64,000 nucleotides of DNA from Phaeobacter inhibens DSM 16374 (GTDB lineage Bacteria; Pseudomonadota; Alphaproteobacteria; Rhodobacterales; Rhodobacteraceae): positions 1,364,001 through 1,428,000 of the forward strand of contig NZ_KI421498.1 in NCBI RefSeq assembly GCF_000473105.1, given 5' to 3'. Of the stretch, positions 19,999 through 23,822 are shown piece after piece; positions within the stretch are counted from its first letter, which is position 1; each line of letters begins with the position of its first letter. The position numbers were made by a program, and so were the translations under genes. Below the pieces are notes generated by a model. It searched no databases and was not told the DNA's origin. It saw only the letters and a program-made list of their open reading frames with translations.

Positions 19999-20322
19999 AT
20001 GCAATTGCCTCCAAAAGTGACCGAGCGTGCCTTTGCCCGGCTGGCCGAAATTGGTGCCGCCGATCAGGGTCAGGCCCTGCGCGTGGCGGTTGAAGGCGGC
20101 GGCTGTTCCGGCTTTCAGTATGAGATTGCGCTGGATGCCCCGCAGGCGGATGATCTGATCCTTGAGGGTCAGGGCCAGAAAGTGGTGGTCGATGAGGTTT
20201 CGCTGCCATTTCTGGAGAACGCGGTGATTGATTTCACCGAAGAGCTGATCGGCGCGCGGTTTGTGATCAACAACCCCAACGCCACCTCCAGCTGCGGTTG
20301 CGGCACCTCGTTTTCGATGTAG
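19999..20322 (+). CDS. erpA: Iron-sulfur cluster assembly/insertion protein (HesB/ErpA type)
   Basis: A-type carrier that delivers Fe-S clusters to apoproteins; 107 residues. The three invariant cysteines are present: 'EGGGCSGFQY' near residue 36 and 'SSCGCGTSFSM' at the C-terminus. GGGAGACCAGAG immediately precedes the ATG. It is divergent from dgt, as is usual in Rhodobacteraceae. ErpA versus IscA cannot be separated by motif alone; the genomic position favours the ErpA-like copy. Confidence 0.92.
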   Translation: MQLPPKVTERAFARLAEIGAADQGQALRVAVEGGGCSGFQYEIALDAPQADDLILEGQGQKVVVDEVSLPFLENAVIDFTEELIGARFVINNPNATSSCGCGTSFSM

Positions 20323-20526: not shown

Positions 20527-21045
20527 GTGTTTGTCGAAAATATACTGACTGATTTTCTGTTAAGATCTGCAGTCCTGTCATCCATAGCGATCATCTGGGT
20601 GATCGTGGTGGTGCGGCTGGTGGGCCTGCGTGCCTTCTCAAAAATGACTGCATTTGATTTTGTTGTGACAGTGGCCATCGGTTCCCTTCTGGCCGGAGCG
20701 AGTCAGGCGACGTCTTGGACCTCTTTTGGGCAATCGGCGCTGTCCATCGCGATATTGCTTTGCGTACAGTACCTCGTGGCCCGGTTGCGACAATCCTCGG
20801 AGAAATTCAAAGCCGCCGTGCAGAACACGCCGGTCATGCTGATGCGTGACGGAGATATCCTGCAGAGCGCGCTTGCAGCGACACGGGTCTCTGAGGATGA
20901 TCTGCTGGCCAAGCTTCGCGAGGCAAATGTGCTGTCATTTTCGCAGGTGCGCGCTGTGGTACTGGAAACCACCGGCGACATTTCCGTGCTGCACGGTGAC
21001 AGCCTGGAAACCCGGCTGATTGTGGGGGTTGAGGTGCCCTCCTGA
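20527..21045 (+). CDS. DUF421 (YetF-like) membrane protein
   Basis: A 172-residue protein with three hydrophobic segments in the first about 85 residues ('AVLSSIAIIWVIVVVRLVGL', 'DFVVTVAIGSLLAGA', 'ALSIAILLCVQYLVARL') and a soluble C-terminal YetF-like domain ('PVMLMRDGDILQSAL', 'LREANVLSFSQVRAVVLE', 'TGDISVLH'). The family's function is unknown. The start is GTG at 20527. The 204-bp gap after the erpA-type gene shows no other feature, so it is probably transcribed on its own. Confidence 0.82.
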   Translation: MFVENILTDFLLRSAVLSSIAIIWVIVVVRLVGLRAFSKMTAFDFVVTVAIGSLLAGASQATSWTSFGQSALSIAILLCVQYLVARLRQSSEKFKAAVQNTPVMLMRDGDILQSALAATRVSEDDLLAKLREANVLSFSQVRAVVLETTGDISVLHGDSLETRLIVGVEVPS

Positions 21046-21061
21046 AAGACGCCCCCACTTA

Positions 21062-22321
21062 TTAGGTGTGACCCGTCAAGCTGATGCCATCGGACGTGAT
21101 GCGGCGGGTCTGGTGCAGGGCCTTACCCCGCCTGCTGAATATTTGCCAGAAATCCCCAAACTCAGGCGTGCTCAGCTTCAGTTTGAGCAACTGGTCTGCC
21201 GCCTCCTGACCTTGCCACTCGGTCAGATACGTAAGAGCTGCACGCCAATGGTCTGCAGCTGACCGCTGGGCATCGTCACCATCCTCCATCAACCAGAGCG
21301 ACAATGGGCGCAGCAGGCTATGCACGGGCGGGGCGGCGATATGGATTGCCCTCCCACCCCCGGCTTGTAAGCGGCCAGTATCCGCCCCCAGCAGCGGCTC
21401 CCCCGGTGCGCTTATCTGCTGCCACCATAGTGTGACGAAATACGCATGATAGCCGTCCACATGCCCGTCAAACCCGTCTGGCGTGATGACAAAGCCCCCT
21501 GCGGCGCGCGCCAGCGCCTGCTCCCACAGGGGCGGCGGCGTGACACCGCAGTAGCGCAGCGCGATGCAGATTTCAGACAGCAGATCCAGATCCTGATCAA
21601 GGCAGGCCAGAAGCCCCGCATAGGTCAGGCCGCGCTGTACCTCGCCGTCCAGCCCCGGATCGCGGCGACCGTAGTCTGAGAGGTAGAACACGATATGGGT
21701 CAGTTCATAAGCGGCCTTGCGATTGGGGATGGCGAAGGTCTGGCTGCGGCGGGCAAACCGGCGCAGCCTGTCATCAAGCCCCGGATCCACCGGCACCGCG
21801 ATGCCGCGTCGCGCCAAAAGCTGCCGTGCCTCGGCCCGTTGCAGGTCTGACATCTCCGCCTCGACCAGCCCCTGGTGGGCCACCCAATGCGCCAGCTCAG
21901 CCGCGCGGGTGTCGGAGCCAAGGCAACCGGTTCCGATCAGGTCCTCGTAATCGAGACAGATCGACAGGATAAACCGATAGTATTGTGGGAAAAACCGCAG
22001 CTGCCGTGCGGCGCGCTCGTAGAATGGGCGCAGGGGAGACAGGGCTGCCTCATCCCGAAAATCCCCTGCGCCCGCGCCTCCCCCAACCCGCTGCTGCATC
22101 ACCCGAAGGAGGCTCAGCAGCTCTGCGTTCTCCTTCAGCCAATAGACATCCTGAGGCGACCGCCGGTGGCGGGCAAAGCTCTCGACCCACGGGGCTACGG
22201 GACCAGCCACAGAGGACCCCGGTCCAGTCGGGGGCTGATGGCTGGACACCGTGCCGATGTCGGCGCGGCGGTCTTTGCGGTCGCCCGCTGCGGGACGTGT
22301 GAACGGCAGGATGACAGTCAT
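21062..22321 (-). CDS. Unrecognised 419-residue protein, partner of the LFSSGS-repeat peptide
   Basis: No confident family assignment; it may belong to a Rhodobacteraceae-restricted DUF. It is predicted to be soluble and mostly helical after a disordered first 40 residues. Notable segments are 'VYWLKENAELLSLLRVM' (59-75), 'SICLDYEDLIGTGCLG' (120-135), 'YELTHIVFYLSDYG' (205-218, containing His209), 'DLDLLSEICIALRYCG' (244-259) and 'DGYHAYFVTLWWQ' (289-301, containing His292). The invariant-looking His/Asp/Cys residues suggest an enzyme, but no known active-site signature was identified. It lies 71 bp downstream of the repeat-peptide gene on the same strand, so the two probably share an operon. 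It is convergent with the DUF421 gene, with a 16-bp gap. Confidence 0.7.
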   Translation of the reverse strand: MTVILPFTRPAAGDRKDRRADIGTVSSHQPPTGPGSSVAGPVAPWVESFARHRRSPQDVYWLKENAELLSLLRVMQQRVGGGAGAGDFRDEAALSPLRPFYERAARQLRFFPQYYRFILSICLDYEDLIGTGCLGSDTRAAELAHWVAHQGLVEAEMSDLQRAEARQLLARRGIAVPVDPGLDDRLRRFARRSQTFAIPNRKAAYELTHIVFYLSDYGRRDPGLDGEVQRGLTYAGLLACLDQDLDLLSEICIALRYCGVTPPPLWEQALARAAGGFVITPDGFDGHVDGYHAYFVTLWWQQISAPGEPLLGADTGRLQAGGGRAIHIAAPPVHSLLRPLSLWLMEDGDDAQRSAADHWRAALTYLTEWQGQEAADQLLKLKLSTPEFGDFWQIFSRRGKALHQTRRITSDGISLTGHT

Positions 22322-22342
22322 GGATCTTACACCAATGCGGGG

Positions 22343-22368
22343 TTTGCGCCCCGGTTGCAGGGCGCAAA
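22343..22368 (-). promoter_or_regulatory. Intercistronic hairpin between repeat-peptide and partner genes
   Basis: TTTGCGCCC (22343-22351) pairs perfectly with GGGCGCAAA (22360-22368) across an eight-base loop. It stands 24 bases past the peptide stop and 22 bases before the partner's start. No U-run follows on the minus strand, so it is more likely an RNA-stability or partial read-through element giving more of the upstream product than a full terminator. Confidence 0.6.
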
Positions 22369-22392
22369 TCTGGAAGGTCGGATCGCCGAAGC

Positions 22393-22629
22393 TCAGCTGC
22401 CGGAAGAGAACAGACCGGTTGCAGCACCGCTGACAGTGGCGCGGTCGGCGCGAGGCGCCGAGCCAGAGGAAAACAGCGAGGTTCCGGCGCCTTCGACCAT
22501 GTCGCCGCGGCTGTCGTGATTGAGCGAGCCGGAGGAGAACAGCTCGGCCCCATGGCCGCTGTGAAGGTCAGCTTCCGGCGTTGTCAATTGCGGTGCCACG
22601 GTCTGGCGGCGCTGTGTGGATGTGGTCAT
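22393..22629 (-). CDS. 78-residue repeat protein with three LFSSGS units (precursor-like)
   Basis: The first about 25 residues are leader-like (MTTSTQRRQTVAPQLTTPEA). The protein then carries LFSSGS at residues 30-35, 52-57 and 73-78, each preceded by a Gly/Ala-rich stretch (GHGAE, EGAGTS, SGAATG). The third copy is the exact C-terminus. Spacings are 22 and 21 residues. The codons for the three copies differ at synonymous positions, so the repeat appears maintained at protein level. GGGAGA lies six bases before the ATG. There is no signal peptide or membrane segment. A multi-core modified-peptide precursor is one reading; a small regulatory or scaffold protein is another. Confidence 0.72.
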   Translation of the reverse strand: MTTSTQRRQTVAPQLTTPEADLHSGHGAELFSSGSLNHDSRGDMVEGAGTSLFSSGSAPRADRATVSGAATGLFSSGS

Positions 22630-23015
22630 GGATCGTCTCCCGTTTCAGGTGAAAAACACCCATCGACGATTGACACGGAATGCCTGCCCGACAACACGAA
22701 AGCACGCCTTTTGGTTGTTTTTACGATGGTACAACCGATGAGCTTTGCGCGGCAGTCTTCTGTTCAGCCAGCAAATAAGCGGCTTCTGCACAGGATAACC
22801 ACAGAGCTGTCCACACCCCCAGCCATACAAAGCCCGAACAGATCGCCCGCCTGCCCCCTTGCAGCGCTGCAAATCGGGTGTCGCACGGCTTTGCGATATG
22901 CCGCTTTTTCGATGGCGATGATTCGGCACTGCGCCGCCGGCGCCCTTGCCCCCTCGCCCGGATTGAGCGATAGATCAAGCGCCCCACCCCGGGCCACAGA
23001 GGCAGGAGACCGGAT
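22630..23015. other. 386-bp intergenic region upstream of xth and the repeat-peptide gene
   Basis: Divergent promoter region. It is A+T-richer near 22650-22800. It contains two sequences resembling DnaA-box variants around 22788-22825 (ATAACCACA and CTGTCCACA). No convincing coding sequence was found; the long minus-strand frame here (22645-22929) lacks a ribosome site and resembles nothing known. Confidence 0.4.
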
Positions 23016-23822
23016 ATGAAAATCGCCACGTTCAACATCAATGGCATCAAGGCCCGTATCAACGCGTTGCCCGAATGGCTGGATGAGGCGCAGCCCGATG
23101 TGGTGGTGCTGCAGGAGATCAAATCCGTCGACGAGGCCTTCCCGCGCGAGCTGTTCGAGGACCGGGGCTACAATGTCGAAACCCATGGCCAGAAGAGCTT
23201 TAACGGGGTGGCGATCCTGTCGAAATTGCCGCTGGAGGACGTGCGCCGCGGCCTGCCGGGGGATGACAGCGACGAACAGGCGCGCTGGATCGAGGCGACA
23301 GTGGTGGGCAAACAGGCGATCCGCATCTGCGGGCTGTATCTGCCCAATGGCAATCCGGTTGAGCTGGACGCGGAGGGCCGGCCGGTCGAAGGCGGCAAAT
23401 ACGCCTATAAGCTGGCTTGGATGGAGCGGCTGCGGCAGCGGGCAAAAGATCTGCTGGCCGAGGAAATGCCCGCCCTGATGGCCGGGGATTACAATATCAT
23501 TCCGCAAGCCGAAGATGCCAAGACGCCTGACGCCTGGAAAGACGACGCGCTGCACCGCCCCGAAAGCCGGGCGGCGTTTCAGCGGATCGTGGCGCTTGGC
23601 TTTACCGAAGCGTTCCGCGCCCGCCATCAGGGGCCGGGACATTATTCGTTCTGGGATTATCAGGCAGGTGCCTGGAACCGCAACAATGGCATCCGCATCG
23701 ACCATTTCCTGCTGAGCCCACAAGCCGCCGACCTGCTGCGTGATTGCCAGATCGACAAGGATGTGCGCGGCCGCGACAAGCCGTCCGATCACGTGCCGGT
23801 CTGGGTTGATCTGGACCTATAG
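23016..23822 (+). CDS. xth: Exodeoxyribonuclease III
   Basis: AP endonuclease / 3'-5' exonuclease of the EEP fold acting in base-excision repair; 268 residues. Motifs: 'MKIATFNINGIKARI', 'VVLQEIKSVDEAFP' (catalytic Glu), 'FNGVAILSK', 'MAGDYNIIP' (Asp/Asn), 'NNGIRIDHFLLS' and 'KPSDHVPVWVDL' (catalytic Asp-His). It starts with ATG at 23016 preceded by GGCAGGAGAC. It is a monocistronic unit divergent from the repeat-peptide operon. Confidence 0.96.
   Translation: MKIATFNINGIKARINALPEWLDEAQPDVVVLQEIKSVDEAFPRELFEDRGYNVETHGQKSFNGVAILSKLPLEDVRRGLPGDDSDEQARWIEATVVGKQAIRICGLYLPNGNPVELDAEGRPVEGGKYAYKLAWMERLRQRAKDLLAEEMPALMAGDYNIIPQAEDAKTPDAWKDDALHRPESRAAFQRIVALGFTEAFRARHQGPGHYSFWDYQAGAWNRNNGIRIDHFLLSPQAADLLRDCQIDKDVRGRDKPSDHVPVWVDLDL

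Follow-up and report, generated by a model that had tools for sequence, protein, structure and literature searches.

We analyzed a 64,000-nucleotide stretch of the Phaeobacter inhibens DSM 16374 genome (contig NZ_KI421498.1 of RefSeq assembly GCF_000473105.1, positions 1,364,001 to 1,428,000; called the window here), in which an earlier note made from the sequence alone had pointed out a small gene for a repeat peptide and, beside it, a gene for a larger partner protein, identified below as DUF6902. The small gene (22393..22629, minus strand) encodes a 78-amino-acid (78-aa) repeat precursor in which a short N-terminal stretch is followed by three LFSSGS units, an assignment based on the open reading frame (ORF) and on the homologous arrays that relatives carry upstream of DUF6902. 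By translation and codons, the units occupy residues 30 to 35 (22525..22542), 52 to 57 (22459..22476), and 73 to 78 (22396..22413), all on the minus strand. The spacings are 22 and 21 residues and the third unit is the exact C terminus, just as the note had described them. Its observation that the three copies use synonymous codons also stands, with FSSGS encoded by TTC TCC TCC GGC TCG, TTT TCC TCT GGC TCG, and TTC TCT TCC GGC AGC. When the 78 residues were shuffled 200,000 times, any pentamer occurred three times in 18 shuffles. Comparison with G075, the one same-genus genome encountered, showed that 15 of 15 FSSGS core residues were kept versus 42 of 63 other residues, with 4 synonymous and 0 nonsynonymous differences in the core codons. 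The approximately 30 residues preceding the first core are poorly conserved, and the cores are strongly conserved.

The partner gene (21062..22321, minus strand) starts 71 bp downstream of the precursor ORF on the same strand and encodes a 419-aa protein. The earlier note had called this product a helical protein of no recognized family. The ORF and the predicted model agree with the length, distance, and helical character, but the protein matched the Pfam family DUF6902 (PF21843) over residues 45 to 397 by hmmscan (E value of 7e-106; 354.5 bits against a cutoff of 27), a family that is recognized but functionally unnamed. A second match, to DUF6895 (PF21836) over residues 51 to 273 (9.5e-23; 81.4 bits against a cutoff of 23.8), relates the two families at the sequence level, and no other Pfam family matched at an E value of ≤1. 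Residues E67, H209, G218, D246, E250, Y291, and H292 (window numbering) are invariant across 13 DUF6902 and DUF6895 proteins, and His, Cys, and Asp residues, of the kinds that had looked conserved in the single sequence, are invariant in the DUF6902 family alignment. From the Pfam matches, the invariant residues, AlphaFold models, and fold comparison, we predict that DUF6902 is an alpha/alpha-toroid-like enzyme related to DUF6895.

We scanned GTDB species genomes for relatives and used the best-scoring 80 of 346 as related loci. In 77 of the 80, a script detected a repeat ORF immediately upstream of DUF6902. Two more loci (L144 and L147) had a repeat array on inspection, the enzyme having been missed by the search pattern, and L151, with only 85 bp of contig ahead of the enzyme gene, could not be evaluated. 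The array was therefore just upstream of DUF6902 in 79 of the 79 evaluable loci among these best 80. A first, strict pattern that required FSSG-like cores had recovered arrays in 22 of the 80 loci. For array statistics we used 78 arrays, including that of the window and omitting L144, L147, and L151, after removing six pentamer strings that we judged to be chance or misregistered. The number of units per array, which is pattern based and partly approximate, ranged from 3 to 20 with a median of 8, spacing was mostly 20 or 21 (with 50 cases of 8), and the array ended exactly at a core in 71 of 78. The array consensus was G-[DE]-[AG]-[VT]-x-[ML]-F-[TS]-S-G-[SL]-A-P, and the context of the core in most relatives was G-[DE]-x-[VT]-x-[MLA]-core-A-P. 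The commonest core of an array fell into 22 types, including FSSGS, FTSGS, FTSGL, FTSSM, FSTSC, FTCGL, IMSAS, and FISWS. Beyond the 78 arrays, we found the cores MMCCS (L176) and YIAGL (L177) and STSSF-like units (L182 and L183). Thus, the number of units varies between arrays as the earlier note had anticipated, but its companion idea of a unit that is invariant across species does not hold, since the near invariance of the unit is confined to single arrays.

Among the 198 genomes sampled from the family Rhodobacteraceae, DUF6902 was present in 55 and the repeat model (E value of ≤0.01) matched in 53. Both occurred together in 52. The single repeat-only genome (G050) was marginal (E value of 0.008). 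Of the three DUF6902-only genomes, G099 (L176) carries two units of another core, MMCCS, and in G139 the match begins at a contig end. The third, G039 (L175), carries a diverged DUF6902 gene in the xthA-erpA interval. Its product has no Y-x-L-T-H motif, and a search for a repeat ORF there gave none; the gene is apparently a decayed or repurposed copy. In a class-level sample, DUF6902 exceeded the cutoff in 3 of 289 genomes, all belonging to the family of the window, and one genome of another family (G589) had a DUF6902 match below the cutoff and a DUF6895 match above it. No DUF6902 match was found on plasmids at an E value of ≤1e-5 (the search did not extend to collections of phages and viruses). 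These results strongly support the array and DUF6902 as a genetic pair, consisting of a multi-core precursor and its dedicated partner. The proposal of such a precursor and partner in the earlier note is therefore upheld as a genetic pairing. Of the modifying or binding role that the note had named for the partner, modification of the peptide is the one that we infer.

We compared units with at least 10 upstream residues and a spacer identity of ≤0.4, in pairs that are not independent of one another. The core was identical in 88.6% of 1,400 diverged unit pairs within arrays and in 12.6% of 3,003 pairs between arrays. Within arrays, core codons differed by 3,391 synonymous and 238 nonsynonymous changes, and spacer codons differed by 1,699 synonymous and 10,316 nonsynonymous changes. 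Judged from these codon differences, the core peptide itself is under selection, which extends to the relatives what the note had proposed from the three copies in the window. Recent copying does not explain the uniformity of the core, given the divergence of the spacers and the silent differences among the core codons, and gene conversion alone is ruled out as its source on the same grounds. The core type has changed at least 26 times on the enzyme tree (72 rows, two of them without a core state), and different cores accompany enzymes that are 75 to 82% identical (L127, L129, L137, and L150). In each of the 78 arrays counted, core position 3 was occupied by Ser, Thr, or Cys; the YIAGL core (G041, L177) contains none of these residues. 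Mixed core types occurred in 5 of 69 arrays and, beyond this set, also in L140, with two types. Two core types per array were seen in L083, L123, L132, L140, and L145, with partial alternation in L083 and with FSSGS at both ends in L123, L132, and L145.

The DUF6895 relatives provide the closest link to a named activity. The title of one paper calls a DUF6895 protein a lasso-peptide epimerase (Shi et al. 2026, ACS Catal., as cited in the review PMC13352647). A search of one literature collection found DUF6895 in that one reference list only and DUF6902 nowhere, and among the titles and abstract openings searched there was no publication on DUF6902 or on such arrays. We examined ten DUF6895 loci above the cutoff, namely six plasmid loci, G589, and three others, and left the below-cutoff matches G274 and G285 out of this count. 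A small, precursor-like peptide gene lay directly upstream of DUF6895 in 8 of the 10, and none was seen in L161 and L162. The encoded peptides combine a leader-like segment (L-x-x-L-x-K-S-G-I ... T-x-x-Q-L) with an aromatic, core-like segment of the consensus GPWYVY, which sometimes occurs twice. DUF6895 genes adjoining such leader-plus-core-like peptide genes were seen in Actinomycetota, Bacillota, and other proteobacteria (L154 to L160 and L215). The DUF6902 systems resemble these in the precursor-like gene directly upstream and resemble the titled epimerase in the sequence relation of the enzymes (9.5e-23) and the shared invariant E/H/D/E/Y-H set. They differ in having precursors with little leader and many short cores and in forming a separate Pfam family. 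No lasso genes were found among the 10 window proteins scanned at the locus, and the cassette of the relatives consists of the array, DUF6902, and mostly a gene for an EamA-like transporter.

AlphaFold predicted the window DUF6902 protein to be helical except for two short strands (pLDDT of 82.8, pTM of 0.83) and the L074 protein to be helical but for short strands (pLDDT of 92.8, pTM of 0.91). In fold comparisons, the best rows reached a Z score of 10.9 in one comparison and 12.1 in a second (4.0 to 4.8 Å over 229 residues). These rows are mostly proteins that we take to be alpha/alpha toroids or barrels, and the comparison tool warns that such Z scores may reflect just a common helical arrangement. 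Foldseek with the DUF6902 models gave no match at an E value of ≤0.001 among PDB or viral structures. Sequence searches of PDB gave none at an E value of ≤1 (one antibody chain appeared at 1.2), and another such search gave none at ≤5. Judged from these searches, DUF6902 is without a credible sequence relative of known structure. Six of the seven invariant residues (all but G218) are placed on the second helices of successive model hairpins, as read from helix order with the short helix 193 to 197 left out and not from coordinates. The second hairpin helices are those that line the cavity of a toroid. The models suggest an alpha/alpha toroid fold for DUF6902, and toroid families outside the fold-comparison rows, such as the N-acylglucosamine 2-epimerases, may still be candidates.

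The gene pair sits between two conserved border genes that lie outside the cassette. In the window, an xthA-like exonuclease III gene (23016..23822, plus strand; Pfam Exo_endo_phos) borders one side, and an erpA/HesB-like Fe-S assembly gene (19999..20322, plus strand; Pfam Fe-S_biosyn) corresponds to the other border in the relatives. Of the 80 related loci, 75 have xthA, 72 have erpA, and 71 have dgt, with constant sides and strands and with some of the misses due to short contigs. We also compared the best-scoring 30 of 116 genomes with an xthA match, 21 of them DUF6902 positive and 9 negative. In 8 of the 9 negative genomes, the neighbor of xthA was erpA, at gaps of 36 to 285 bp and once 508 bp. 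The array and DUF6902 genes are a cassette between xthA and erpA that is missing from other members of the family.

An EamA-like gene followed DUF6902 directly, on the same strand and before erpA, in 61 of the 72 loci where erpA was found, and five others without erpA in reach also carry it. Its product of approximately 300 aa is 49 to 100% identical to that of L080 (L080:8089-9006), the query itself included. Three examples, including one from the 80 loci, matched Pfam EamA, and the NCBIfam amino-acid exporter models matched only far below their cutoffs. The gene was missing in 11 of the 72 loci, seven of which belong to one clade (L127, L129, L136, L137, L150, L152, and L153). A search of 12 genomes found a 67 to 77% identical copy beside DUF6902 in four DUF6902-positive genomes and at best a 33% match, located elsewhere, in six DUF6902-negative and two window-genus genomes. 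The EamA-like gene is likely a third cassette member, and it suggests a small product that could be sought in the culture medium. The earlier note had reported no adjacent transporter or protease; this is correct for the window but not, as to the transporter, for most relatives, and no protease was noticed in the cassette. In the window, the position of the EamA-like gene is occupied by a DUF421/YetF-like gene (20527-21045) on the strand opposite DUF6902. A gene of this kind between DUF6902 and erpA was seen in the window genus and in L179 and in 0 of the 80 related loci.

The precursor-enzyme pair is the best-supported reading of the locus. We hold with roughly even confidence that it is a multi-core system of the RiPP (ribosomally synthesized and posttranslationally modified peptide) type, with epimerization as the likeliest chemistry. 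The precursor made from the small gene would have little leader and would repeat one pentapeptide core (FSSGS in the window) several times in a fixed context. DUF6902, as a toroid-like helical enzyme, would take the units in turn and modify each core, most likely by L-to-D inversion of one core residue. Epimerization is favored because the DUF6895 relative is an epimerase by the title of its paper and because the core side chains vary, with one lineage having no Ser, Thr, or Cys in its core; side chains that vary so widely fit chemistry at the alpha carbon. Our guess for the modified site would be core position 3, at which the arrays inspected always have Ser, Thr, Cys, or Ala. In most relatives, a small product would be cut out by unlinked proteases and probably exported via the EamA-like transporter, and in the window, which has no EamA-like gene, the export step would be done otherwise or be absent. 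Catalysis and epimerization, like release and export, are thus steps that we infer for this system. We also counted in favor of this reading that G039 has lost the T-H motif and the peptide together.

That the core varies from species to species but is nearly uniform in any one array, beside an enzyme-like partner that probably alters the copies, suggests an undescribed kind of modified bacterial peptide. If DUF6902 modifies the arrays, this would be a peptide system in a common bacterial family, more than a quarter of whose sampled genomes (55 of 198) carry the enzyme. It would extend a little-studied peptide-modifying superfamily from single-core to multi-core substrates, with an enzyme able to modify a single chain at up to 20 sites. 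It would also make it directly testable why the core is uniform inside an array yet changes between species.

Modification of the cores by another reaction, such as dehydration, cyclization, hydroxylation, or acylation of Ser, Thr, or Cys, is a possibility that we regard as doubtful. The cores are rich in these residues, position 3 is one of them in 78 of 78 arrays, and the lanthipeptide synthetase CuvL was among the fold-comparison rows. However, DUF6902 matches just itself and DUF6895 in Pfam at an E value of ≤1, the YIAGL core of G041 (L177) offers no Ser, Thr, or Cys, and the only studied relative is, by its title, an epimerase. It is also conceivable, although unlikely, that no covalent change takes place; the array would then serve as a structural or scaffold repeat protein through mutual pairing of its cores, with DUF6902 as a chaperone or binding partner. 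Homotypic pairing would demand what is seen, a core that differs as a whole array between close relatives while the spacers diverge. The FTSGS and FSSGS cores presumably resemble low-complexity aromatic segments, and the window has no transporter gene. Yet the acid/His/Tyr set is also invariant in DUF6895 proteins, whose neighbors are short peptides that have a leader-like part, and looks catalytic. The EamA-like transporter in 61 of 72 loci favors a small exported product in most relatives and makes a scaffold less likely.

We think it very improbable that the importance of the locus lies mainly in a DnaA-binding site in the xthA-erpA interval, with the peptide and DUF6902 secondary. Such a role is raised by the 400 bp upstream of the array, counted in 75 of the 78 arrays. 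There were 72 TTATNCACA boxes in 47 of these 75 regions, mostly near -186 and -110, compared with 3 in the remaining 1.01 Mb of these loci; the reversed pattern gave 1 and a first-order Markov control a mean of 0.68. Against it stand the very strong selection at the protein level and the lack of an exact box in 28 of the 75 regions. In the window, the intergenic region from xthA to the precursor gene (22630..23015, no strand assigned) contains no exact TTATNCACA, and neither does that of its congener. Moreover, a box within 500 bp upstream of xthA occurred in 0 of 9 DUF6902-negative versus 15 of 21 positive genomes, a comparison that is partly about having any intergenic region, because the xthA-erpA gap is mostly short in the negative genomes. 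By exact box matches, the putative DnaA link is a property of many relatives and not of the window. A chance repeat beside a housekeeping protein has a negligible probability: the shortness of the window array was all that we found in its favor, and against it are the 18 in 200,000 shuffles and the conserved, variable-length arrays of the relatives.

The DnaA boxes upstream of the relatives' genes suggest a tie to the cell cycle. The precursor-enzyme reading could be carried further, to a replication-linked peptide code in which short, lineage-specific peptides with a D-residue would differ between marine Rhodobacteraceae, have their own transporter in most, and be produced under a tie to DnaA. 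The five core letters would then be kept uniform because something must recognize them. We consider this elaboration quite improbable. A replication origin at the window was not supported, since there was no clear skew switch in the stretch examined and no exact DnaA box near the peptide.

Several known systems share single features with the locus. The multi-core microviridins (PMC5934393) and the fungal KEX2-processed repeat proteins (PMC7329392) are described as having many near-identical cores, variable spacers, and one modifying or processing system. They differ from the present locus in their enzyme family; here, no ATP-grasp ligase or Kex2 system was identified, and there is no clear leader. 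The lasso-peptide epimerase MslH (PMC10406935) resembles the likely reaction type proposed here, peptide epimerization, but is metal dependent according to the title, and DUF6902 has no credible sequence match in PDB. The C-terminal F-x-S-x-x letters of the window peptide (FSSGS-COOH) recall the FxSxx-COOH/FxsB systems (PMC7159879), from which the window peptide differs by its internal repeats and another partner. Membership was rejected, as there was no NCBIfam FxSxx match at an E value of ≤1 and no FxsB above the cutoff in the genome; the best FxsB radical-SAM match had 21.9 bits against a cutoff of 370, and 13 of 14 control genomes likewise matched below the cutoff. Known anti-phage defense families were also rejected, with no match at an E value of ≤0.1.

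Further motifs were observed upstream of the repeat genes. Two same-strand DnaA boxes (TGTGGATAA) occur there, for example, in L074, L088, and L124, and are absent in the window; in 19 loci the distance between the two is exactly 76 bp. Such double boxes occur at 18 places in 17 of the 198 family genomes, 13 of them at the cassette by coordinates and 5 elsewhere. In L074 to L153, a conserved TGCAAGCGT-like motif precedes the start codon of this gene by approximately 25 to 50 bp, and the exact GCAAGCGT was found in 32 of the 75 upstream regions.
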